Virus record (IMG/VR): IMGVR_UViG_3300032157_000376
Span: 1 to 41,662 of that record
DNA from: a virus
Length of the DNA stretch: 41,662 nt
Direction: 5' to 3' (one strand)
The notes beneath the pieces were generated by a model, which saw only the letters and a program-made list of their open reading frames with translations, was not told the DNA's origin and did not search any database. How positions within the stretch are numbered: the first letter of the stretch is position 1; every line of letters begins with the position of its first letter. Both the position numbers and the translations under genes were made by a program. Positions 1 to 22,401 of the stretch are shown one piece after another.

Positions 1-1020
1 TCATTCGACGGGTCGCGCGAGGGTGAGGTTTCGCTTGTAGACCCGCTTCGTGGTCTCACTACTCGCGTGACCTAACAACGCCTGCGCCTCTTCGATCGTC
101 GCCTTGTCGCTGCCGGCCTTCGCGCGCAGATCGTGGAAGGTGAAGCGCTGCCCGCCAGCCTTCATGTATTCGGCCATGAGCTTCTGCCACATCGCCGAGA
201 AACCATTCGTGGTGTACGGCTGGCCGTCCAGCCGGCGCAGCAGGTAGTCACGCGGGATCTGCGGCGCGAGCGCCCAGAGCTCCTTGATGGTGGCATCGAG
301 CGCCGGCGTGATCTCGATCAACACGCCTTTCCCTGTCTTCCCCTGGTGGATGACGATCCCTTTTTCGGTGATGTGCTCCCGGCGGATCCGTAGCAGGTCG
401 CCCAACCGTTGCCCGATGTTCCTGGCGAGATCGATCGCCAGCCGTAGCCGCGGGCTCGCCAGCGCCTTCACCGCTTCCACCTCGGCGTCGGTGACGTATC
501 GGTCTCGCTTGCCTTTGGGAAGCCTCTCCAGCGTCCGTACGACGTTGTGCGTGCCGGCGCCCCAGCGAATCGCCTTGACGAGCACGTGGCCCAGCAGCGT
601 GATCTCGTGCCTGGCGGCAACCGGTGCCGGCCTCGAGGGAATGACATGGCCATTGGCACGGACGATCTCTTTCGTCACGCGGCGATCGATGTACTCGTAG
701 ATCTCCGGTGCCGTGAGGTCGTCCGGAAGCTTGTGGCCGAACACCCGCGACAGGCGCTGGAGCGCGATGTCCTGGTCGAGGCGCGTTTTCTCTGAGCGCT
801 TGAGAGGGAGGACCTCGAGGCGGTACTTCTCGATGACATCCGCCAGGGTATGCACGCGGCGATGAGGGCCAGCCAGGCGGGCGTATTCCTTGAAGGCCTC
901 GACCATGTCTCGGCCTAGGTTTACGCGTTTGCGTGTGCCACGCGGGCGCAGGTAGTAAGTCCCGCTGACGAGATCCATCCCACGAGGCAGGTGCGTGTTT
1001 TTAAGCCGCTTTCGGCCCAT
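1..1020 (-). CDS. int: Tyrosine recombinase (phage integrase)
   Basis: A 339-residue tyrosine recombinase that would insert and excise the prophage by site-specific recombination. The C-terminal half carries the catalytic set: R205 (GQRLGDLL), K228 (GKTGKG), H296 and R299 (HDLRA), H318 (LLGHASS) and nucleophile Y328 (KRVYKR). Residues 50-160 form the core-binding region and the basic N-terminus probably binds arm sites. It is the last gene of the leftward operon and overlaps the DUF4224 gene upstream by 20 bp, a usual pairing in prophages. Its 3' end lies exactly at the window edge, so attL should be just outside. A second recombinase lies at 21268-22401. This one, at the prophage edge, is the better candidate for the integrase that placed the element. 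Confidence 0.93.
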   Translation of the reverse strand: MGRKRLKNTHLPRGMDLVSGTYYLRPRGTRKRVNLGRDMVEAFKEYARLAGPHRRVHTLADVIEKYRLEVLPLKRSEKTRLDQDIALQRLSRVFGHKLPDDLTAPEIYEYIDRRVTKEIVRANGHVIPSRPAPVAARHEITLLGHVLVKAIRWGAGTHNVVRTLERLPKGKRDRYVTDAEVEAVKALASPRLRLAIDLARNIGQRLGDLLRIRREHITEKGIVIHQGKTGKGVLIEITPALDATIKELWALAPQIPRDYLLRRLDGQPYTTNGFSAMWQKLMAEYMKAGGQRFTFHDLRAKAGSDKATIEEAQALLGHASSETTKRVYKRNLTLARPVE

Positions 1021-4569: not shown

Positions 4570-4808
4570 TGAGAGATCCTCGATTGAAGTGGCGCCGGCC
4601 GATGCCAGCGATTGAAGAGACGGCGCAGCCCATACGAACGCAGTAGGCTCGCGCCGGTGTAGATGACGACCAGCACCGCGTTCTGGCCGGCGGTGATCTT
4701 CCAGCCGAGCAGCGGGAAGATCGTGTAGTTCAGGACCGTGTTGAGCAGCATGCCGACGACGATGTTCGCCGCAGCCTCGGTCATTGATTGCCGGCGAGAT
4801 TGCGTCAT
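4566..4808 (-). CDS. Small membrane protein (DUF7220-like)
   Basis: An 80-residue protein with two predicted membrane segments (about residues 13-33 and 42-58), a conserved-looking NYTIFPLLGW turn between them, and a basic C-terminus. It resembles small two-helix phage membrane proteins grouped as DUF7220, of unknown function. It is joined by ATGA overlaps to the HNH gene upstream and the ParB-like gene downstream. Topology is inferred from hydrophobicity only. Confidence 0.65.
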   Translation of the reverse strand: MTQSRRQSMTEAAANIVVGMLLNTVLNYTIFPLLGWKITAGQNAVLVVIYTGASLLRSYGLRRLFNRWHRPAPLQSRISQ

Positions 4809-5251
4809 GCGGCGGTGACCTCGTCGTCGAAGAGGTCAGCCGAGGCCTTGCCTTCGCGCCTGGTCGCGTAGGCCGTCTCGGCGTGGTGCTTTTTGTCGTG
4901 ATGCAGGTGGCACCGCTGGCACAGGAACTTCAAGTTCGACTCGTCGCAGTTCTCTGGCACGTGATCCAGGTGGGCGACCGTGCACACGATTCGAATGATG
5001 CGAAGGAAGTGCTGCGGCCCGCCTTTACCGCACCACCAGCGCTCGCCGGGCTTCGGGAAGACGAGTTTGAGGGACTCCTCGCCGGTCGGATGCGCCGGGT
5101 GGAAGTTTCCATCGCTGTCGCGAGCGCCGAGCGCCCAATTCCTGACCCCGCAGAACTCGCAACAGTTTTTCGCCCGCTGCTGGATTCGCGCGCGGATTTC
5201 CGCCCAGTCGGACGGGTAGCGGTCGAGGTTCTCGGGACGGATCGGGCTCAT
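4805..5251 (-). CDS. HNH endonuclease-like protein coupled to the reverse transcriptase
   Basis: A 148-residue protein with an HNH (beta-beta-alpha metal) nuclease core. C31 and C34 with C111 and C114 make a structural zinc site. The catalytic segment reads VAHLDHVPEN (H94, D96, H97), then N106 and CQRCHLHH (H115, H117, H118). The start at 5251 is chosen because ATGA couples it to the stop of the reverse transcriptase; a longer upstream frame exists without support. Position directly after the RT suggests a role in the retroelement, for example nicking during cDNA integration, but phages also carry HNH proteins for packaging or defence. Unlike packaging HNH genes it is far from the terminase. 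Confidence 0.8.
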   Translation of the reverse strand: MSPIRPENLDRYPSDWAEIRARIQQRAKNCCEFCGVRNWALGARDSDGNFHPAHPTGEESLKLVFPKPGERWWCGKGGPQHFLRIIRIVCTVAHLDHVPENCDESNLKFLCQRCHLHHDKKHHAETAYATRREGKASADLFDDEVTAA

Positions 5252-6528
5252 GCCATCGCCTTCGCGAGCCAGGGAAAACGGCGGTAGATGTCCAGCCGCA
5301 GTTTGAAGCTGCTCGCATGCGCGAAGTGCCCGGAGTAGCTCGACCAGATGGAACGAACCGCCTCGAGCGCCTTGCGGCTGTCCGTGATGCGACCAGCGTG
5401 GCAATGCGTGCGCTCCCAGGCGGCGAGCTTCGCGCGGCAGTGGCCGATGACCCGCCGGCGCGTGACGACGTGCGAGGGGAAGAGCACGTAGCCCAGGAAG
5501 TCGATGCCATCACGCAGCGGCCGCAGCTTAACGTCCGCCTTGAGCTCGAGCTGCAGCTCTCGCCGCAGGAAGTCGGCGATCGCCTCTTGCCAGGCCTCGA
5601 GCTGCCCACGGTCCTGGTGCACCAGCACGAAGTCGTCGACGTAGCGCAGGTACCGCGGCGCTCGCAGCCCATGCTTCACGAACTGGTCGAGCCGATCGAG
5701 GTAGACGTTGGCGAAGAACTGGGACGAGAGATTGCCGATGGCGATGCCGCAGCCCGGCGGAGAGTTCTCTAACCGCTTGTGGGGCGGGACCGCCTGCCGC
5801 GCGCGCGCGGTGCAGGCCCAGTTCACGCCCGTCCGCTGGATCGGCCAGGTCAAAAGCGCATGCACCGCCCGCCTGACAGATAGCGAGATGGCGGCGCGCT
5901 CCATGCGCGGTTTTAGGAGCGACCAGAGCGTTGGCCGATGGATGCTGGCGAAGAAGTTCCGGATGTCGAGCTGCAGGTAGTAGCCGCCGCCCTGGCCGGA
6001 CTCGACCTGGCGGATGAACTGCCGCAGGCGCGCGACGGCCGCGTGCGTGCCCTTGCCTACGCGGTTCGAATAGCTGTCGTGGATGAAGGTCGGCTCGAAG
6101 ACCTGCTCGAGCTCGGGGACGATGAGATGGTGGACCACGCGATCCGCGAAGCGCGGCGCGTGGATCTCGCGGGCCTTCGGTGCCTGGGCTATGAAGCAGG
6201 TGGGCGCCATCGGATACCAGTGAAGGCTGTTCAGGCGGCGCTGGATGTCGAGCAGCTCATCGATCCAGCGGGCCTCGAACATCATTTGATCGAGGCTGGG
6301 CTTCTTCCCGCGACGCGCCTGGCGCCAGGCAGAGTAGAGGCTGCGTAACGAGACCGCACCGTGACACTCACCGGCGCGCACCGCGCGGACGTGATTGTCG
6401 TAGCTCTGGTGATTCCGGTTGGAATTGCCGTTGCCGAGGTTGACGTTCCACGCGTAGTCCGAGGGGGACGGCGCTATCCCGATCACTTCGGACCCTGCCG
6501 CACATCCGAGGTAGCGCGGCATCGTCAT
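5248..6528 (-). CDS. Diversity-generating retroelement reverse transcriptase, with template repeat in its 5' end
   Basis: A 426-residue frame encoding the DGR reverse transcriptase, which copies TR RNA into cDNA with errors at adenines. Palm motifs are clear: D188 in YLQLDIRNFF (motif A), IGNLSSQ at 264-270 (the (I/V/L)GxxxSQ signature that separates DGR enzymes from group II intron and retron RTs), and YVDD at 296-299. Upstream RNRVGKG-like residues (SNRVGKGTHAAV, 154-165) are also typical. The C-terminus has a short thumb. The ATG at 6528 overlaps the avd stop as ATGA, so translation probably starts before the TR and residues about 19-54 are TR-encoded. No ATG lies between the TR and M82-M83, though an in-frame GTG exists within the TR. 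The stop overlaps the HNH start. Confidence 0.95.
   Translation of the reverse strand: MTMPRYLGCAAGSEVIGIAPSPSDYAWNVNLGNGNSNRNHQSYDNHVRAVRAGECHGAVSLRSLYSAWRQARRGKKPSLDQMMFEARWIDELLDIQRRLNSLHWYPMAPTCFIAQAPKAREIHAPRFADRVVHHLIVPELEQVFEPTFIHDSYSNRVGKGTHAAVARLRQFIRQVESGQGGGYYLQLDIRNFFASIHRPTLWSLLKPRMERAAISLSVRRAVHALLTWPIQRTGVNWACTARARQAVPPHKRLENSPPGCGIAIGNLSSQFFANVYLDRLDQFVKHGLRAPRYLRYVDDFVLVHQDRGQLEAWQEAIADFLRRELQLELKADVKLRPLRDGIDFLGYVLFPSHVVTRRRVIGHCRAKLAAWERTHCHAGRITDSRKALEAVRSIWSSYSGHFAHASSFKLRLDIYRRFPWLAKAMA
6370..6474 (-). repeat. DGR template repeat (TR)
   Basis: About 105 bp whose coding strand is the minus strand. It is nearly identical to two downstream-of-gene repeats at 6993-7094 and 7686-7790, with every difference on a TR adenine. 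Seven AAC/AAT codons are spaced through it (translated NVNLGNGNSNRN and so on), the codon type that yields the widest amino-acid range after adenine mutagenesis. Its 3' end holds a 21-bp stretch (6371-6391) with no adenine on the coding strand, shared with both VRs, which should be the initiation-of-mutagenic-homing (IMH*) segment. It lies in frame in the RT gene. Confidence 0.95.
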
Positions 6529-6962
6529 GGTGTTGCCCCAGCGGGCGAGGCGGATCGGGAACTCAGTATCGGGGCACGCTGCACAGGCGGACGATCAGCC
6601 CGGGCATCCTGGCCCTTCGGTTGCAGTCGTTTCAGCCAGCCTCCACTCTGCCGGCCCACTTCATGTACGAGGCGTGCGATCGCCTCGAATTCTCGAAAGC
6701 TACGGAAGGCGTCGACATCCTTGCCGAGCTGCAGATCCACCTTGAGAGCGTCCACCGCTTCACACAGCTGGCGCACGCGCTCGAGTCGACCGGCGGGATC
6801 CCGCCACGCACGAAGCGCAACGAGCACGACCCTCTTCGCCGCGACGCGAAGATCCACGCCGGTCGAGTACTTGTGACGCCTGGCCATGCGCGTGAAGACC
6901 AGCTCGATCGCCGCCCTCACGCGCTGCGCGTCCTTCACGATTTGCGGTAGTTCAGACTTCAC
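6525..6962 (-). CDS. avd: Avd-like DGR accessory protein
   Basis: A 145-residue, mostly helical and strongly basic protein in the position of the accessory variability determinant, between the target genes and the RT. Known Avd proteins are about 120-130-residue four-helix bundles forming a pentamer that binds RT and TR RNA. The predicted helices (about 5-27, 36-52, 56-76 and 83-107) and lysine/arginine-rich faces fit. The last 35 residues (after WLKRLQPKGQ) look disordered. GTG start at 6962, 12 bp after the stop of the VR2 gene; stop overlaps the RT start as ATGA. Identification rests on position, size and helix pattern; the primary sequence is poorly conserved in this family. Confidence 0.8.
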   Translation of the reverse strand: MKSELPQIVKDAQRVRAAIELVFTRMARRHKYSTGVDLRVAAKRVVLVALRAWRDPAGRLERVRQLCEAVDALKVDLQLGKDVDAFRSFREFEAIARLVHEVGRQSGGWLKRLQPKGQDARADRPPVQRAPILSSRSASPAGATP

Positions 6963-6974
6963 GGCTTCGCTCGG

Positions 6975-7643
6975 TCAAATTCCGATGGGCTGACCGGCGC
7001 GCACCGCGCGGACGCGATCGTCGTAGCTCTGGTGACTCCGGTCGGAAAGGCCGCCGCCGAGGCGGACGCTCCACGCGTAGTCCGAGGGGGACGGGGCGGG
7101 CGTCGAAGTCCATTCCCAGGCCGACGTCTCCTTCGGGTCGAAGAACGTGACGTCGAGCGCGGGCTCCACGCGCGTGTAGTCGACGATCGAGAGCCGCTCC
7201 TGGATGGTGGGCGCGCGCGCCGGCGCGCCGCAGAGCGTCGCATCGCCGGCAGCCTTCACCGCGTCTTTCCAGTTACGCGACCCGGCGAGCAGCCGGCGGC
7301 CCCAGATGAGACCGGTGGTGGCGTCATAGACGCCTTCCCAGTCGGTGGCGCTCGCCGGCAGGGCGCGGCCGTCGCTCGACACCTTGCAGAACCGCACAGC
7401 AACCGCCGAGCGGGGCGGCACAACCTTGGCGATCGACGCGGTCCGCAGCCGATCCACGAGCTCGGCGCGCAGCGATTCGTTCGCGGCCTGCAGGATCCCG
7501 GGCAGCTGGTCGATCAGGCCTTCGGCGGCGCCGCGGGCGTCGAACTGCTGGGAAATGGTGATGTTGATCGCCGTCGGCTGGGCAACCGTCTCGAGGACGG
7601 CCGTCGCCACGACCTTCGCGCGCTTCTTTGTGTTCTTACGCAT
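6975..7643 (-). CDS. DGR target protein 2 (DUF1566-like, C-type-lectin-type fold)
   Basis: A 222-residue target of diversification. Residues 1-75 are helical, with AAEGLIDQLPGI and a basic N-terminus but no proper signal peptide. Residues 105-190 have DUF1566 hallmarks: TTGLIWGRR, NWKDAVKAA and EWTSTP. The VR covers about residues 183-217, near the C-terminus as in known variable proteins, where a lectin-like fold displays the varied side chains. Compared with the TR, asparagines are replaced by S, R, G, L, D and S in order. Five residues (QPIGI) follow the VR. ATG at 7643 has CGGAG about 5 bp upstream. Ligand unknown. Confidence 0.88.
   Translation of the reverse strand: MRKNTKKRAKVVATAVLETVAQPTAINITISQQFDARGAAEGLIDQLPGILQAANESLRAELVDRLRTASIAKVVPPRSAVAVRFCKVSSDGRALPASATDWEGVYDATTGLIWGRRLLAGSRNWKDAVKAAGDATLCGAPARAPTIQERLSIVDYTRVEPALDVTFFDPKETSAWEWTSTPAPSPSDYAWSVRLGGGLSDRSHQSYDDRVRAVRAGQPIGI
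6993..7094 (-). repeat. DGR variable repeat 2 (VR2)
   Basis: Aligns to the TR with an offset of 623 bp. From TR positions 6370 to 6471 it differs at 11 positions (6392, 6396, 6413, 6420, 6425, 6426, 6431, 6432, 6440, 6441, 6446 in TR coordinates). Each is a T on the plus strand, that is an adenine on the coding strand. No other substitutions or gaps occur. Homology stops near 7094. Confidence 0.95.
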
Positions 7644-7679
7644 ATCAGCTCCGATGATTGGTGAAGGCCAATGGCCTAT

Positions 7680-8153
7680 CTACTGACCGGCGCGCACCGC
7701 GCGGACGTGATCGTCGGAGCTCTGGTGATACCGGCTGGAATGGCCGTAGCCGAGGGAGACGGACCACGCGTAGCCCGAGGGGGACGGCGCGCCGTCATCG
7801 TCTTCCTCGAGCTCGGCGTCCGGCGTCGCGGTCCACGTCCACTCCCAGCCTTCCGCATCGGGGAAGAAGTTCGTGTCGAGCCGGCATTCCGGATTCGTGC
7901 GATCGGCGACCAGGAACAATTCCTCTACCGCCGGCAACCGCCACTTCCAGCCGTTCGCCTGGTGCGCCTCGGCCGTGGCCGCCGCGTCCTTCCACTGGAT
8001 GCCGGTGCCCGCGCGATACGCAGCGACGATCAGCGGCTCTTTCAGGAGCGGGTGATCGACGCGCACCGCCAGGTGCTTGTCCGGGCCGTCGTTCGGATGA
8101 TCGGCCGGCAGGTCACTGCCGTCGGCCGCGAGCTTGGTGTACGTGGGCTTCAT
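7680..8153 (-). CDS. DGR target protein 1 (DUF1566-like, C-type-lectin-type fold)
   Basis: A 157-residue target protein. DUF1566 features include IQWKDAAATAEAH (52-64), WRLPAVEEL (71-79, the usual WRLPT-x-EL box), NPECRLDTNFFP and WEWTWTATP. An acidic linker (LEEDDDGA) precedes the VR at about residues 122-156, and the protein ends one residue later. No signal peptide or membrane segment is seen. The start at 8153 has GGGAG six bases upstream; the frame extends to 8345 without support. Its VR carries S, S, Y, H, S and Y at TR asparagine positions, different from target 2, so the two genes have diversified independently. Partner or ligand unknown. Confidence 0.9.
   Translation of the reverse strand: MKPTYTKLAADGSDLPADHPNDGPDKHLAVRVDHPLLKEPLIVAAYRAGTGIQWKDAAATAEAHQANGWKWRLPAVEELFLVADRTNPECRLDTNFFPDAEGWEWTWTATPDAELEEDDDGAPSPSGYAWSVSLGYGHSSRYHQSSDDHVRAVRAGQ
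7686..7790 (-). repeat. DGR variable repeat 1 (VR1)
   Basis: Aligns to the TR with an offset of 1316 bp. Eleven substitutions (TR coordinates 6396, 6401, 6414, 6419, 6426, 6432, 6440, 6441, 6446, 6447, 6458), all at coding-strand adenines. The rest of the repeat is identical, including the 21-bp adenine-free 3' block. Immediately 3' of that block the base is C where the TR has G. Confidence 0.95.
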
Positions 8154-8169
8154 CGATATCTCCCAGTGG

Positions 8170-8499
8170 TTAGGTGCGCGCGGCGTTCGTCGGCCGCGAG
8201 CGGGTTTTTCGCTGCTCAGTCTTTTCGTTGCTGAGCTGCAGGATCTGTGTGCCGTTATCGAGCTTCTCGACGGTCTCGAAATACTGGTGGTGCGCCTTGC
8301 GCGAGGCGGACTGGTCGACCGTGCCGGTGGGCGAGATCTCGCCATTCATGCGCAGGCGGTAGATTGGCTGGTCGCGATCGCCGAGGATGATCACGAGCTG
8401 GAACCCGTCCTCGTAGACCAGGCGGCGGATCTCGCGCACGCGGTCCACGTGCCGCGGCCACGGCCGCCCGTCATTCATCCTTGGAGCGCGCGGGTGCAT
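8170..8499 (-). CDS. Hypothetical protein upstream of the DGR targets
   Basis: A 109-residue protein with a central part that looks folded (LVYEDGFQLVIILGDRDQPIYRLRMNGE) and a polar, basic C-terminus ending RSRPTNAART. The start at 8499 overlaps the previous stop as TGATG; an internal ATG eight codons in is possible. It ends 16 bp before the start of target 1 and is therefore cotranscribed with the DGR. No family recognised. Confidence 0.55.
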   Translation of the reverse strand: MHPRAPRMNDGRPWPRHVDRVREIRRLVYEDGFQLVIILGDRDQPIYRLRMNGEISPTGTVDQSASRKAHHQYFETVEKLDNGTQILQLSNEKTEQRKTRSRPTNAART

Positions 8500-8984
8500 C
8501 AGATCGGGCCCGCCTGGCGCACGGTGAGCCTCAGAAGTGGGAGCGACTCTCCGCCTGAATGCGACGGTGCATCGCCAGCGAACACCTCGGATCGTTCCAC
8601 GGACGACCCAGCGCCTGGCGCCGCGGCCTCCGTGTCGTAATCCATGCCAGGAAGCGGGAAAGGATTGCCATCGTGGATCTCCTGCTTTTCGAAGAAGGAT
8701 CGGAGAGGCACCAGGGGCGCGGCCGGCGTCGCATCACCAGCGTGAGGGAGATGCACGGCGGACTTGGTGGCGACCTCGGCCACGCCCCTGTTCAACGATT
8801 CGCAAAAACGGACCGCCCACTCGCGGTCCGAGGCCTCGCCCATGAAACGGCCCGCGCGGTCGTACACGCCGAAGAACTCCGGCGTCGACTGCATGCGCGG
8901 TGATTGATCGAAATCCTCAAGCAGCTGCATCACGTAGCCGGCGATCGGCGAGCCCCAGACGGCGCAGACGTGGTAGGTGCTCAT
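8499..8984 (-). CDS. Hypothetical 161-residue protein
   Basis: Starts MSTYHVCAVWGSPIAGYV at 8984 with AGAAGG upstream and an ATGA overlap with the preceding gene. The first 80 residues look compact and mention typical of small phage alpha/beta proteins; the rest is proline- and glycine-rich and probably disordered. No recognised family. Part of the leftward operon. Confidence 0.55.
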   Translation of the reverse strand: MSTYHVCAVWGSPIAGYVMQLLEDFDQSPRMQSTPEFFGVYDRAGRFMGEASDREWAVRFCESLNRGVAEVATKSAVHLPHAGDATPAAPLVPLRSFFEKQEIHDGNPFPLPGMDYDTEAAAPGAGSSVERSEVFAGDAPSHSGGESLPLLRLTVRQAGPI

Positions 8985-14193: not shown

Positions 14194-14639
14194 ACGCCGT
14201 CGTCGACATCGATCGAGACACCGTGGTGGCCCCGCCGGCCGAGCACCGCATCCCGGGGCGGGATCGCTCCTGGATTGACGCGCTCCTGCAGCGCTGGGGC
14301 GCGTGGATCTGGAAGTACCGCGCCTTCGAGGGATATCCAACGACGGACAGCATCGCGGCTTTCCTCTACGGCGCCGGTGGCCGCACGAACCAGCACCGCA
14401 TCTTGTGCAAAGACCCGCCCCCGTGGTTCACGCTCACGCACATCCTGGTGATCATGCTGCCTGAACACGAAGGCGTTGCTGTATTCACGGAATACGTGCC
14501 CGGCGTCGACGATGACGGTCGCATCATGTCAAGGGCGGATCGATGCGCAAAAATCAACGTGAACGAGGAGACGTTTCGCAAGCAATTACAGCGAGCTAAG
14601 GTGCGCATCTGGGAATGGTCGCGTGTCAGAAAGCGTTGA
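14190..14639 (+). CDS. Putative late-gene regulator (Q-like)
   Basis: A 149-residue protein at the end of the early rightward operon. The C-terminal part (ADRCAKINVNEETFRKQLQRA, KVRIWEWSRVRKR) looks like a sigma-type or antiterminator helix-turn-helix, and the length is close to small Q-type proteins. Directly after it come a TTGACA promoter whose -35 box includes this gene's stop, a short leader and a terminator, as lambda Q precedes pR' and tR'. This context is the main argument. The sequence itself is not close enough to a known Q for certainty. Confidence 0.6.
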   Translation: MNAVVDIDRDTVVAPPAEHRIPGRDRSWIDALLQRWGAWIWKYRAFEGYPTTDSIAAFLYGAGGRTNQHRILCKDPPPWFTLTHILVIMLPEHEGVAVFTEYVPGVDDDGRIMSRADRCAKINVNEETFRKQLQRAKVRIWEWSRVRKR

Positions 14640-14642
14640 CAC
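14623..14642. promoter_or_regulatory. Inverted repeat over the late -35 box
   Basis: GTGTCA (14623-14628) and TGACAC (14637-14642) form a 6-bp inverted repeat separated by 8 bp that covers the -35 hexamer and the stop of the Q-like gene. Could be a binding site for the Q-like protein. Confidence 0.35.
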
Positions 14643-14664
14643 GTTGTCCCGCTTTGAGTAGCGT
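14636..14664 (+). promoter_or_regulatory. Putative late promoter (pR'-like)
   Basis: TTGACA (14636-14641), 17-bp spacer, TAGCGT (14659-14664). The -35 is perfect and the -10 matches at T1, A2 and T6. It directs RNA rightward through a short leader into the terminator at 14709-14731, and then to the late genes. Confidence 0.5.
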
Positions 14665-14708
14665 TTCGCGCAGTGTTGATTCCTGCGCCCGCAGGATTCG
14701 CACAAGCA

Positions 14709-14731
14709 ACCCGCCCTCGTGGCGGGTTTTT
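14709..14731 (+). terminator. Rho-independent terminator (tR'-like)
   Basis: ACCCGCC, loop CTCGT, GGCGGGT followed by a run of T to 14731. About 40 bases after the predicted late start site, so it would stop late transcription unless polymerase is modified. Confidence 0.75.
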
Positions 14732-14755
14732 CATGTCTGGTTGATCCTCTGTACG

Positions 14756-14786
14756 CGGCCCGCGAGACCCCCTCAGCGGGCCGTTT
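14756..14786 (+). terminator. Second hairpin in the late leader
   Basis: CGGCCCGC (14756-14763) pairs with GCGGGCCG (14776-14783) across a 12-base loop and is followed by TTT. A weaker terminator or leader structure between the tR'-like terminator and the first late gene. Nothing coding is seen between 14640 and 14891. Confidence 0.45.
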
Positions 14787-14891
14787 CATTTCCGGCCACC
14801 TCAACTTTTGAGTCAGCGGTAACCGCTGGTGCGGCTTTTTGCCTTTCTCGGCAGCCGTGCGTGGCCGGAATTTTCTCTCCAGGAGTCTCCG

Positions 14892-17819
14892 TTGCGTAAA
14901 CCCGCTCCGTGGTGGACAGCGCTCACGCTCTTCGCCACATCGGCCCTGGCCGCGCCCATCGTTCTCATCTGCGTCCCGGGCTCCGAGACGCCCGTGGTGG
15001 TGCCGACGCCGCCTGACGAGCCGAACACCGCGCCCACCTGGTCGATCCCGGACCGCTCGATCCAACGGACGAGCTCGTGCGCGCTCGACCTGACCACGGT
15101 CACGGACGACGCCGAGAACGACACGCTGACCTATACGCTCGTGTCGGGATCGCTCCCTACCGGCTGCTCGCTCGTCGGATCCTCGCTCACCGGCACGGCC
15201 AACACCAACGGCACGTACAACTTCGTGCTGGGCGCGAACGACGGCAACAGCGTCACGCTGCGCGAGGCCTCGGCGACGACGGCGCCGCTGTCCTGGACCT
15301 CTGAAGAGTTCACGCCGGCGCAGACCGGCATGTTCGATTTCGCGTTCACGATCACGCCGTCGGGGAACAACATCGACCACGTCTGCGGCTACGGCACGCA
15401 GGCCATCAGCGCGTATGCACATACGCTGGTCGCGATCCGGCTGAACACCGCGGGCAATTTCGATGCCCGCAACAACGCGAGCTACACCGCGGTCAACACG
15501 ATCGCCTACTCGGCCGGCGTCTCGTACAACATCACCGGCCGGATCAACGTCGAGGCCGGTACCGCGGACATCTCGGTCAACGGCACCGTCTTGGCCGATG
15601 ACTACGTCTTCCGCGGGGGCGCACTGCCTGGCGATCTCGAATTCTTCGGCTGTGCCGATGCGGCAACCCCCGGGGTGGTGGGCACGGCGGTCAGCGCGAT
15701 CTCGCTCACGCAGCCGGTCATGGCGCCGGTCACGTACACGGTGTTCGCGGAGACGGATAGCACGCCGCCGAGCGCGCCGTCCGCGCCGACCGTCTCGGGT
15801 GTCACGCAGACCACGGTCACGCTGTCCCTGCCGGCCTCCGGCGCCGGCGATCACAGCTACTACCGCGTCGAGCGATCGCCGTCGGGCTGCGGCGCCTACG
15901 CGCAGATCGCCGACAACGTCACCGATGCGACGTACACGGACACCGGCCGCACCCAGAACACCGCGTACTGCTACCGCCTGGTCGACGTCGACACGGCCGG
16001 CAATGCGAGCTCGGCTGGATCCGGCGTCACTGCGACCACGTCCTCGGTCGACGTCAATGCGTTGCTTTCGCTCGGGAATACCTCGGTCCTCGAGGGCAAC
16101 TCCGGCACCGCCAGCCTGAGCTTCACGCTGACGAGCTCGGCGTCGCAGGCCTTCAACATCGTCTGCAGCTACCAGACGTTGGGCGGCACGGCTGAATCCT
16201 CGACCGACTTCGTCGCGGCCTCCGGGACGGTGCAGATCGACTCGGGCACCACCACCGAACCGATCGCGATCACCGTGAATGGGGACACCACCCAGGAGCC
16301 GGACGAGACACTCACCCTGCGCGTATACAACTGCGGCCAGAACGGCACCGCGGTTAACGCCACCGAGTTCACGGCCACCGGCACGATCACCAACGACGAC
16401 GGCACGGCCAATATCGCGACCAGCGCGCAGAGCTCGGTCACGCAATACGGGATCACCTGGACGTTCAACACCACCTACCAGGTCGGCCAGTTCGTCAACG
16501 GCGACTACTTCGTGATCAACCCGGGCGCCGGCGTCGTCGTGAATTCGGTCAGTCCGACGCCCATCACGGGCCGCCATGGCTCGATGCGCAACCCCGCAGT
16601 CCCGAGCAGCCAGGGCTTCGATGACCGCTCGTATGCGTACAACGCGAGCCTGCGCGTGGCGTTCCCGGTCACGCTGGCCACGAACGACGTCCTGATCTCC
16701 ACGATCTCGCAGCTCGACGACGGCCCCCAGTGGGACGGCGCCAACGACGACAGCAAGGTCAACCTGGCAACGGCCGCCATCCTCACCGTGCTCTCGAGCT
16801 CGCCGCCGGTGGGCACGTTCCGCCCCTCGTACGCGGATCCCTCGAAGACGCTCTACAACGCGAGCAGCATCAACACCGCGGTGCTTCCGCGCCTGTCGAC
16901 CACCGGCATGCCGAACCCGAACTCGAGCGGGTTCGCCAACGCCCTCGAGCGCAACAAGCGCGCCATCGAGCGGCCGTGGCTCATGTTCGGTTCGAACTTC
17001 AACAGCCGTGGCATTCATCCGGCGTTGAACATGGACGGGTATCACCGCGAGGTGAGCGAGGTCCTGTCCGAGCTCTACACCTACCTCGCCAGCGACAAGA
17101 CGATCGACGAGACGCTGCTCATCCGGGTGGTGCAGCTCGGCATCGACTTCTATCACGTCGGGACTCGCGGCAACGCGGACTCGAGCTTCTGGGTGCCGCC
17201 GATCCTCATCGCCGGCAAGCTCATCAACAATTCGAACATGCTGAACCTGTTCACCACGGGGATCAGCAACCTCAAGTCCGTTCCGCGCGACTTCGCCGAC
17301 TTCTACATCTGGAGCGATCCGTGGCGCGGCGCGAACAACGTCGAGCCGGGCGGTCCGAACCCGAGCCGCTGCCCGAATGTCAGCGTGCCTCTGGGTGAGA
17401 CCTACAACGGTTATACGGTGTTCTTCCGGAACAACCTGGGCAACAACCGCGACTACGAGCACCTGACGCCGTCCGAGCGCCTCGCTTGCGGCATCGATAA
17501 CAATGACGACTCCTATCGCAACGATCAGGACTCGCACCCGCACGTCGGTATGGTGTTCGCTGGCCTTGCTTTCGACCTGGTCGACGAGTGGGACCACTAC
17601 GCGACGTTCGCGTACATCGATCGATGGATGCAGGGCGAGAACCAGTCGTCCTCTGACGACTTCGTGGATGCGATGTACGAGACGCACCGCGACAGCTTCC
17701 AGGCCTTCGACTGGCTGGCTTCAACGGCTGCCAACGACGAAGACTTCGGCCAATGGGCCGCGGCCAACGATGACTGGTTCGACTACTACGTCGACCGGAA
17801 GGCCGCCAATGATCGCTAA
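14892..17819 (+). CDS. Large secreted multidomain protein (cadherin-like, FN3, Calx-beta)
   Basis: A 975-residue exported protein. The TTG start at 14892 has AGGAG six bases upstream and opens directly into a signal peptide (MRKPAPWWTALTLFATSALA). Domains, in approximate residues: 44-117 dystroglycan/cadherin-like (PTGCSLVGSSLTG); 126-245 a lectin-like beta-sandwich segment; 296-383 fibronectin III; 385-503 Calx-beta (EPDETLTLRVY and TGTITNDDG); about 590-975 an unrecognised, partly helical region rich in W, D and N (HPALNMDGYHREVSEVLSELY, DEWDHYATFAYIDRWMQ) that may be enzymatic. Cysteines are frequent, which fits export. Not a typical virion protein; more like an adhesin, polysaccharide-active enzyme or lysogenic-conversion factor. 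The next gene overlaps its 3' end. Confidence 0.8.
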   Translation: MRKPAPWWTALTLFATSALAAPIVLICVPGSETPVVVPTPPDEPNTAPTWSIPDRSIQRTSSCALDLTTVTDDAENDTLTYTLVSGSLPTGCSLVGSSLTGTANTNGTYNFVLGANDGNSVTLREASATTAPLSWTSEEFTPAQTGMFDFAFTITPSGNNIDHVCGYGTQAISAYAHTLVAIRLNTAGNFDARNNASYTAVNTIAYSAGVSYNITGRINVEAGTADISVNGTVLADDYVFRGGALPGDLEFFGCADAATPGVVGTAVSAISLTQPVMAPVTYTVFAETDSTPPSAPSAPTVSGVTQTTVTLSLPASGAGDHSYYRVERSPSGCGAYAQIADNVTDATYTDTGRTQNTAYCYRLVDVDTAGNASSAGSGVTATTSSVDVNALLSLGNTSVLEGNSGTASLSFTLTSSASQAFNIVCSYQTLGGTAESSTDFVAASGTVQIDSGTTTEPIAITVNGDTTQEPDETLTLRVYNCGQNGTAVNATEFTATGTITNDDGTANIATSAQSSVTQYGITWTFNTTYQVGQFVNGDYFVINPGAGVVVNSVSPTPITGRHGSMRNPAVPSSQGFDDRSYAYNASLRVAFPVTLATNDVLISTISQLDDGPQWDGANDDSKVNLATAAILTVLSSSPPVGTFRPSYADPSKTLYNASSINTAVLPRLSTTGMPNPNSSGFANALERNKRAIERPWLMFGSNFNSRGIHPALNMDGYHREVSEVLSELYTYLASDKTIDETLLIRVVQLGIDFYHVGTRGNADSSFWVPPILIAGKLINNSNMLNLFTTGISNLKSVPRDFADFYIWSDPWRGANNVEPGGPNPSRCPNVSVPLGETYNGYTVFFRNNLGNNRDYEHLTPSERLACGIDNNDDSYRNDQDSHPHVGMVFAGLAFDLVDEWDHYATFAYIDRWMQGENQSSSDDFVDAMYETHRDSFQAFDWLASTAANDEDFGQWAAANDDWFDYYVDRKAANDR

Positions 17820-20695: not shown

Positions 20696-21268
20696 ATGTT
20701 CACTCCACGCTTCAGCGTCACGTTGGACATTCAGGCCGCGCGCAAGTCGTTTGCCGGCGAGCAAAAGGAAGTCAACAAGGCCGCGGCGCGCGCGCTCACG
20801 CGCACCACGACCAGCGCCCGGAAGGCGGCTGACCAGACCATGCGTCAACGCATCACGCTGAAAAGCGGTGTGGTAAAGGACGCGTTCGAGATCGTGTTCC
20901 CTTTCGGAAGTCGGTCGCTGGTGCGCGATCTGCAGGTGAGCGGCGATCCGATTCCGCTTCGTGACTGGGCCGCAAGGCGCACTCAGCGCAAGGGCGTGAC
21001 GTTCGCGGTGGTCAAGGGGCAACGGAAGGCTTACATGCGCCGCGGCCGCAAGTCGTTCATCGTGGAGCGCATTGGCGGACACGTGTTCGTGCGTACGAAC
21101 GCTGATCCACCGGGCCCGGCAAAGGCGAAGATCGCCAAGGTGTTCGGCCCCAGCCTCACACAGCGCTTCCGGACCAAACAGGTGCAGAACGCAGTGATGG
21201 CCGCGATTCGCGAGCGGTGGCCGATCGAGTTCGAGCGCGAGATGAACTACCGCAGATCCAAGCTCTGA
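20696..21268 (+). CDS. Minor tail protein Z-like (GPZ)
   Basis: A 190-residue basic protein with the pattern of prophage minor tail protein Z: a helix with NKAAARALTRTTTSARKAAD, then RITLKSG, and a C-terminal helix ending VMAAIRERWPIEFEREMNY. In lambda, Z acts late in tail completion at the head-proximal end. Here the gene is displaced to before the terminase, and its stop overlaps the start of a recombinase (TGATG). This suggests mosaic insertion or rearrangement. No other Z-like gene is seen in the tail region. Confidence 0.8.
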   Translation: MFTPRFSVTLDIQAARKSFAGEQKEVNKAAARALTRTTTSARKAADQTMRQRITLKSGVVKDAFEIVFPFGSRSLVRDLQVSGDPIPLRDWAARRTQRKGVTFAVVKGQRKAYMRRGRKSFIVERIGGHVFVRTNADPPGPAKAKIAKVFGPSLTQRFRTKQVQNAVMAAIRERWPIEFEREMNYRRSKL

Positions 21269-22401
21269 TGCGTGCCGGATCTGGTCATCTCGAGCTCGTC
21301 GGCCCGACCTGGTACCTGCGATTGCGGCTGAAGGAAGTCGATCGCGGCACGGGAGAGATCGCGACGAAGCAACGGCGCGTGACCATCGGGGACAAGGCTC
21401 TACTCCGAAGCAAGTCTGCAGCTCGCGCCGCGGCCGATCGGTGGCTCGTGTCTCAGAACCCGGAGACGCTCGAGCCTGGTGTTCAGGTGACGGTGGGCGA
21501 GTACTTGGCGCACTTCAACGCGATGCACGTCGCCCTGATGCGGCCGAGCTCGCAGCGACGGTACAAGTCGGTGATCGGCTTTCACCTGGCGCGTGAGTTC
21601 GAAGGCGAGCTACTCGAGCGGGTCGACGTTCGGCGAATCCAGACCTACATCGCGCGCATCGCGCCTACGAAGGCACGTGAAACGATCCGCAGCATCCTGG
21701 CCATCCTGCTGCAGGCGCTCGCCCAGGCGCGGCGTGATGGGTTTGCCGTGCATCGGATCGACCGGAAAGCGATCAAGCTGCCTAAGGCCTCGGCCATTGG
21801 TCGTGACAAGCGGAACATCGGAGACCAGGAGCTCATCCTGCTGCTCGAGGGCAGCGAGGATCCGTGGCGCACGTTGTGGGCTGTCATGGGGTATGCAGGG
21901 CTGAGGTGCAGCGAGGCGCTCGGCCTCACCTGGGAGCACATCGATCTCGGTGCCCAGGTGATCAAGGTCCGCCAATCGGCAGTACTCGGGAAGCTGCAGC
22001 TGCCGAAGACAGTCACGTCGAGGGCGGATGTACCCATCCTCCCCGAGCTCGCCGAGATCCTGTCCGCATATCGGGGTCGCTGGCAGGCGAACAGTCAGGG
22101 GCTGCTGTTCATCGCCCGCAATGGGAAGCCATTGAGGGCAGACAACGTACGGGTGCGGCACCTGCGACCCACCCTGAAACGACTGGGTCTGAGGCATGCC
22201 GGGATGCACGCGTTCAGGCATGGATTGCCCGCCCGATTGAACGCTATCGGGGTCTCGCCAGGCGTCGTCCAGAAGTGCATGCGACACGCTTCGCTTGAGC
22301 AAACCGAGGCGTACCTGCACGTGGGTACGGCAGATGTGCATGCAGCGCTCGATGCGGCACGCACGAGATCGGTGCGTCCCGCAGAACTCAACGGGCCGTG
22401 A
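21268..22401 (+). CDS. Second tyrosine recombinase inside the structural module
   Basis: A 377-residue tyrosine recombinase with the complete active site: R213 (GLRCSEALGL), K247 (PKTVTSRADVPI), H314 and R317 (HAFRHG), H340 (CMRHAS) and Y349 (TEAYLH). An N-terminal arm domain (ELVGPTWYLRLR) resembles phage integrases that begin with an AP2-like fold, and residues 75-175 form the SAM-like core-binding domain. It points with the late genes and is coupled to tail protein Z by TGATG. Distinct in sequence from the integrase at 1-1020. It could be a relic of a satellite or other element, an Xer-like resolvase, or an alternative integrase. Confidence 0.88.
   Translation: MRAGSGHLELVGPTWYLRLRLKEVDRGTGEIATKQRRVTIGDKALLRSKSAARAAADRWLVSQNPETLEPGVQVTVGEYLAHFNAMHVALMRPSSQRRYKSVIGFHLAREFEGELLERVDVRRIQTYIARIAPTKARETIRSILAILLQALAQARRDGFAVHRIDRKAIKLPKASAIGRDKRNIGDQELILLLEGSEDPWRTLWAVMGYAGLRCSEALGLTWEHIDLGAQVIKVRQSAVLGKLQLPKTVTSRADVPILPELAEILSAYRGRWQANSQGLLFIARNGKPLRADNVRVRHLRPTLKRLGLRHAGMHAFRHGLPARLNAIGVSPGVVQKCMRHASLEQTEAYLHVGTADVHAALDAARTRSVRPAELNGP

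Follow-up and report, generated by a model that had tools for sequence, protein, structure and literature searches.

A phage-borne diversity-generating retroelement whose template repeat appears to be translated as part of the reverse transcriptase gene

A viral sequence of 41,662 nt (IMG/VR virus record IMGVR_UViG_3300032157_000376, positions 1 to 41,662; the whole stretch is referred to below as the window) carries on its minus strand two target genes with an Lcl_C domain, an avd gene, a template repeat (TR) and a gene for a reverse transcriptase (RT). This is the target-avd-TR-RT order of the diversity-generating retroelement (DGR) of Bordetella phage BPP-1 (mtd-avd-TR-brt; AY029185). The locus raises two questions: whether it is a genuine DGR that has rewritten its targets, and what is to be made of a TR that lies in frame inside the open reading frame (ORF) of the RT, a point that is absent from the first-pass annotation of this DNA. 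The features on which the analysis draws are listed in Table 1.

Table 1 Features of the retroelement locus, in window coordinates
Feature	Position	Strand	Evidence or remarks
Target gene 2 (Lcl_C / C-type-lectin-like domain)	7680..8153	-	PF07603, E 3.7e-12; VR2 at its end
VR2	7686..7787	-	11 differences from TR, every one at a TR adenine
Target gene 1 (222 aa, Lcl_C domain)	6975..7643	-	PF07603, E 1.6e-16
VR1	6993..7094	-	11 differences from TR, every one at a TR adenine
avd accessory gene, GTG start	6525..6962	-	phrog_3206 Avd protein of DGR, E 2.6e-11
ACTGAGT-containing conserved element GTGCCCCGATACTGAGTTCCCGATCC, within the avd 3' end	6552..6577	-	Low synonymous change; clade-wide motif
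Hairpin GCCTC/GGGGC; 3' arm includes the Shine-Dalgarno-like GGGG of the RT start	6535..6551	-	Excess over shuffles
Leader (RT ORF codons 1-18, start ATGACG)	6475..6528	-	Conserved start context; flat codon-position profile
TR, in frame within the RT ORF	6370..6471	-	Ungapped program alignment
TR/VR 3' boundary mark, IMH*-like	6364..6372	-	GGTGAGTGT in TR, GGTCAG in VRs
RT ORF, 426 aa	5248..6528	-	PF00078, E 1e-14; phrog_1423, E 9.9e-93; bRT match in PDB

Identity of the element and its homing

The RT carries both motifs, GNLSSQ and YVDD, that had been put forward as its signature, and the Avd-like gene noted beside it is borne out by the PHROG match of avd. The match of avd to the Pfam bAvd profile stays below the cut-off (23 of 40 bits); a gene at the equivalent position is found in 90 of 92 relatives. 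The best sequence match of the RT in the PDB is the Bordetella DGR RT (8ub7, E 4e-30), the best group II intron RT following at E 6e-10. When the predicted fold was compared with the PDB, the DGR ribonucleoprotein took all of the first five places, with bRT of BPP-1 on top (E 1e-23; TM 0.87 when normalised to the bRT chain). Target 1 and Avd gave zero matches to PDB sequences.

Relatives were fetched from viral contigs (80) and bacterial genomes (80). The window RT belongs to a monophyletic clade of 92 distinct RTs (SH-aLRT 100), the loci of which are phylogenetically dependent, and the counts given below are to be read as such. Among the named hosts, the nearest belong to the Xanthomonadales (Rhodanobacter, Stenotrophomonas, Arenimonas, Dyella, Xanthomonas and others).

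By profile match, VR1 and VR2 each form the end of an Lcl_C (PF07603) gene. The likely start of target gene 2 is the ATG at 8153; the mechanical ORF extends to 8345. No further copy of the repeat was detected in the whole 41,662-base record, and an Rfam search of 5200-8600 gave zero matches. The plus strand holds a siphovirus-like gene set (terminase, portal, protease, tape measure, J-like tail fibre, endolysin). The DGR is set apart from these genes and lies near integrase and ParB, so that its targets are not evidently tail proteins; in this it differs from the BPP-1 element, the target of which is Mtd. Several VRs, each in a separate target gene, are also found in the multi-target DGRs of, for example, Vibrio cholerae and Stenotrophomonas SKA14, with DUF1566 (Lcl_C) domains in the Vibrio targets (PMC6642488); the passages of that source used here do not describe the frame relation of TR and RT in these elements. 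Elsewhere in the record, there are two tyrosine integrase genes (phrog_1), at 1-1020 (-), reaching the window edge, and at 21217-22401 (+). At 14586-17819, long ORFs overlap on opposite strands (1033 aa on the minus and 996 aa on the plus strand), of which the plus ORF matches phrog_34846 (function unknown).

A program alignment on the minus (coding) strand agreed with the first-pass annotation that the TR matches two repeats without gaps, at offsets +623 and +1316, and that 16 of the 22 adenines of the TR have been replaced in VR1, VR2 or both. Its statement that 22 of 22 differences fall on adenines holds for 6370-6471, with 11 in each VR. Over the limits 6370-6474 that had been given, the count is 22 of 23: a twelfth VR1 difference, a G>C at TR 6472, lies at the 5' edge. 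In the core, substitutions at non-adenine positions of the TR are absent. Neither of the two observations named in the first-pass annotation as refuting its reading, such substitutions or an RT that groups with group II intron or retron enzymes, was thus made. The chance that 11 of 11 differences hit the 22 adenines among 102 positions is 4e-9 per VR. In the relatives, 1857 of 1879 TR/VR differences were at adenines (134 pairs from 73 loci), which make up 23 % of the positions.

Just beyond the 3' end of the TR, position 6369 is a G and both VRs have a C. This asymmetry, GTGAGT in the TR and GTCAGT in the VR, is directly visible in the aligned repeats and recurs in 131 of the 134 TR/VR pairs of relatives; it is thus a fixed boundary mark and not a product of mutagenesis. 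It is the counterpart of IMH* and IMH. The BPP-1 DGR likewise combines adenine-directed differences and Avd with fixed differences at the TR/VR 3' boundary. According to flank profiles, the conserved sequences past the boundary differ, the TR continuing as GTGAGTRTCAGGGTGC and the VR as GTCAGTAATTGGNCTTTTGG. The VR 3' flanks at 6979-6992 and 7672-7685 (-) carry the clade consensus GTCAGTAATTGGNCTTTTGG, which is absent from the TR. This flank is a likely target recognition sequence, and no long hairpin is conserved along with it. A conserved hairpin of the BPP-1 type 3' of the VR was considered and rejected: stems of at least 5 bp occurred in 19 of 131 cases against 22.7 in shuffled sequences, which is no excess. 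VR2 does have GGCC-ATT-GGCC 3' of it. Since BPP-1 itself does not strictly depend on the hairpin/cruciform 3' of the VR (PMC12875486), such a structure is no defining trait of the DGR family.

Homing could be traced by comparison with the nearest relative (L004), the RT of which is 91 % identical. The TRs of the two elements differ at three positions, and at these sites all three L004 VRs have the letters of the L004 TR while both window VRs have those of the window TR. Between orthologous VRs, 14 and 15 of the 22 TR adenine sites have different letters, and the 240 nt upstream of the VR in the orthologous targets are 88-89 % identical. Since the VRs match their own TR at private sites, information has passed from TR to VR in each lineage after the split. 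The transfer is documented by the compared sequences themselves: homing has acted since the two elements diverged. Past activity, which had been proposed from the adenine pattern, is therefore supported more strongly than before.

Other readings of the locus were also weighed. An RT of the group II intron or retron type, accompanied by unrelated repeats, would share PF00078 with the window RT, as all these enzymes do, yet the BPP-1 DGR RT is the best PDB match in both sequence and fold, and adenine-only TR/VR differences and avd are found throughout the clade; this reading is barely credible. Nor is it probable that the repeats are remnants of past homing in an element that has since decayed. 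Sequence comparison reaches only past transfer and not present activity, but every gene is intact, core differences are confined to TR adenines and the VRs bear the private changes of their own TR relative to a 91 % identical element. An HNH endonuclease gene (4805-5251, -) could be taken for an accessory that nicks the target: its start codon and the stop of the RT gene share an ATGA, it matches PHROG 1571 (E 4e-24), and the target-cleaving nuclease was left unidentified in PMC3240598. It adjoins the RT in just 2 of 87 clade loci, however, which makes such a role very improbable; it was rejected as a DGR partner and is taken as a bystander. The element is a genuine phage-borne DGR and, as the first-pass annotation held, a complete one with adenine-directed mutagenic homing, in which two lectin-like genes are rewritten where the template has adenines. 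As a DGR, it is ordinary, one of many.

The template inside the reading frame of the reverse transcriptase

The RT ORF begins at 6528, where its ATG and the stop of avd share the letters ATGA. Within this ORF, the TR has the frame that it also has in the target genes. Continuity of the RT frame through the TR is seen directly in every one of the 92 distinct clade members; among 58 more distant DGRs, in which the TR lies mostly at a distance similar to that in the clade, the figure is 18. Outside the clade, 40 of the 58 have a stop in this stretch of the RT frame, and 29 have an ATG right at the TR end, as opposed to 3 of 92 inside; in these distant elements, the frame is often closed by a stop where the TR ends, and an ATG comes after it. 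Across 76 loci, 0 stops were counted in the RT frame versus 77 and 109 in the other two frames. An open frame by itself was rejected as evidence that the TR is translated, as the BPP-1 brt frame is likewise open upstream across its TR. In addition, target genes keep the TR stop-free in the VR frame, and this accounts in part for the open frame at in-phase loci. Openness alone saying little, the case for translation rests on phase, compensation and missing starts.

The start motif RTGAC[GA] was in RT phase in all 71 loci in which it was detected, at 18 different start-to-RT distances, each of them a multiple of three. Its conserved context, GRGGCCAAnnnATGACG, includes a Shine-Dalgarno-like sequence. 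Alternative starts are often missing: from the edge of the TR to the RT core, 59 of 90 loci are free of ATG, GTG and TTG, and in five loci all three are absent over the whole way from the leader start to the core. Differences at the three codon positions in the linker from TR to RT core (.094/.069/.278) match the periodicity of the core itself (.074/.051/.248), so that the sequence is coding from the end of the TR onwards.

Six loci (L008, L014, L018, L040, L041 and L093), which go back to five events on the tree, have a TR that does not share the phase of the RT. The leader ATG of these loci is still in RT phase and the RT frame is stop-free; among 84 in-phase loci, 41 have a stop in the frame concerned. 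Each event required slips before and after the TR that offset each other. The probability that all five would stay in phase without selection is about 0.004 before stops are taken into account (our own estimate, at one in three each). On the sequences compared here, the compensated slips are the best evidence for a passage of ribosomes from leader through TR into RT, and in the whole clade, translation of the RT appears to run through the template that the enzyme copies.

The template-encoded tail of the enzyme is predicted to be disordered. In the AlphaFold model, pLDDT is <50 for RT residues 1-55 and mostly >90 afterwards, and the confidently folded RT domain begins at about residue 57 (6360 downwards), just past the end of the TR. 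The nucleotides of the leader are well conserved, and its codon-position differences (.126/.155/.171) are without periodicity. The leader peptide is therefore not under selection at the protein level, and a conserved leader peptide was rejected on this flat profile. From the disorder, and from the lack of codon periodicity despite conserved nucleotides, the template-encoded tail of about 55 residues looks like a disordered passenger peptide, and the leader resembles a nucleic-acid element that ribosomes merely traverse. In a more distant DGR (L103, RT 48 % identical), the hairpin is present together with a leader of similar kind, but TR and RT are separated by a stop; its sequence suggests that the leader predates the read-through frame.

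The main competing reading is an ordinary DGR in which the RT starts at a GTG near the 3' end of the TR and the open frame merely follows from a high G+C content and from target genes that require a VR frame free of stops. Many in-phase loci do have an in-frame GTG there that could serve as an internal start, the sequence is rich in G+C, the brt frame of BPP-1 is also open by chance, and the leader is without codon periodicity. Such a start does not account for the five loci that are devoid of ATG, GTG and TTG over the entire leader-to-core stretch, for the 18 distances that are all multiples of three, for five independent and each time compensated frame slips of the TR, or for the conserved ATGA overlap with its Shine-Dalgarno-like sequence. 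It is also at odds with the elements outside the clade, where stops and an ATG at the TR end are common. It is unlikely, though less so than a decayed element. A DGR with its template inside the RT gene and an RT that carries a disordered passenger tail is the preferred overall explanation of the sequence data, with a probability of roughly 0.8.

A survey from 2012 gives TRs that overlap annotated RT ORFs, like the one described here, as a cassette arrangement (PMC3521204), and the overlap as such is thus already known. The structure section of that survey holds no test of translation, whereas frame conservation, compensated slips and missing starts argue here that the TR is translated. In the open-access literature that was searched, no published test or report of TR translation was found.

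Signals around the template

The TR of BPP-1 is separated from the annotated brt start by a spacer of 144 nt, for which folding, recruitment of the RT and priming of cDNA synthesis have been reported (PMC12875486). The present clade is unlike BPP-1 in having no such intergenic stretch. Folding of the BPP-1 spacer gave a mean z of -2.6; structured RNA just after the TR was looked for in the clade, and that region showed little excess folding over shuffles (mean z -0.3). Synonymous differences past the TR (0.63 and 0.59) are above the gene mean, in keeping with a region that is not under synonymous constraint. The structured TR-RT spacer is absent here, and is a feature of BPP-1 rather than one that defines DGRs.

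Constraint is found on the other side of the TR. Over avd codons 121-128, synonymous differences fall to 0.11, compared with 0.46 as the avd mean, in a block that surrounds the motif ACTGAGT. The motif is present in 99 of 100 clade loci versus 5 of 58 outside the clade. A functional element has been reported at the avd 3' end of BPP-1 (PMC12875486), where the conserved block is found here, and this block is possibly a 5' end signal for cDNA synthesis. The ACTGA of the avd element is complementary to the TCAGT of the VR boundary, a pairing that would be broken by the G of the TR; it is within what chance allows for two short motifs. Beside the RT start, a hairpin of 5 bp occurs in 78 of 86 clade loci, as against 27 expected from shuffles, and its 3' arm holds the Shine-Dalgarno-like GRGG. 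The hairpin fits a coupling of RT translation to that of avd, or an end signal for the cDNA.

A possible RNA that is both message and template

Put together, RT and Avd would make cDNA on the portion of the avd-RT transcript that holds the TR, with misincorporation opposite adenines, and this cDNA would replace the 3' ends of the two Lcl_C targets as far as the fixed 3' boundary (GTGAGT in the TR, GTCAGT in the VR). If translation starts at the leader ATG, ribosomes that end avd would restart at the overlapping ATGA and read leader and TR before they reach the RT fold right past the TR. The RNA elements used would lie 5' of the TR rather than 3'. A model in which a single RNA serves both as RT message and as mutagenesis template, with the signals for RT recruitment and for stopping shifted 5' into the avd 3' end and the leader and no spacer on the 3' side, is put forward tentatively, the odds being somewhat against it in this full form.

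On this model, the passage of ribosomes through the TR would either compete with reverse transcription of the TR or gate it. With the template inside the RT frame, there is no room for a spacer of the BPP-1 type, and priming would have to work otherwise, or the structured element would have moved. DGRs near this clade have been found in cultured bacteria such as Stenotrophomonas nitritireducens DSM 12575 and Rhodanobacter thiooxydans LCS2, which makes the idea open to experiment. Synthesis of the RT and use of the template would be tied to one and the same stretch of RNA, and this offers a testable idea of how mutagenesis may be restrained.
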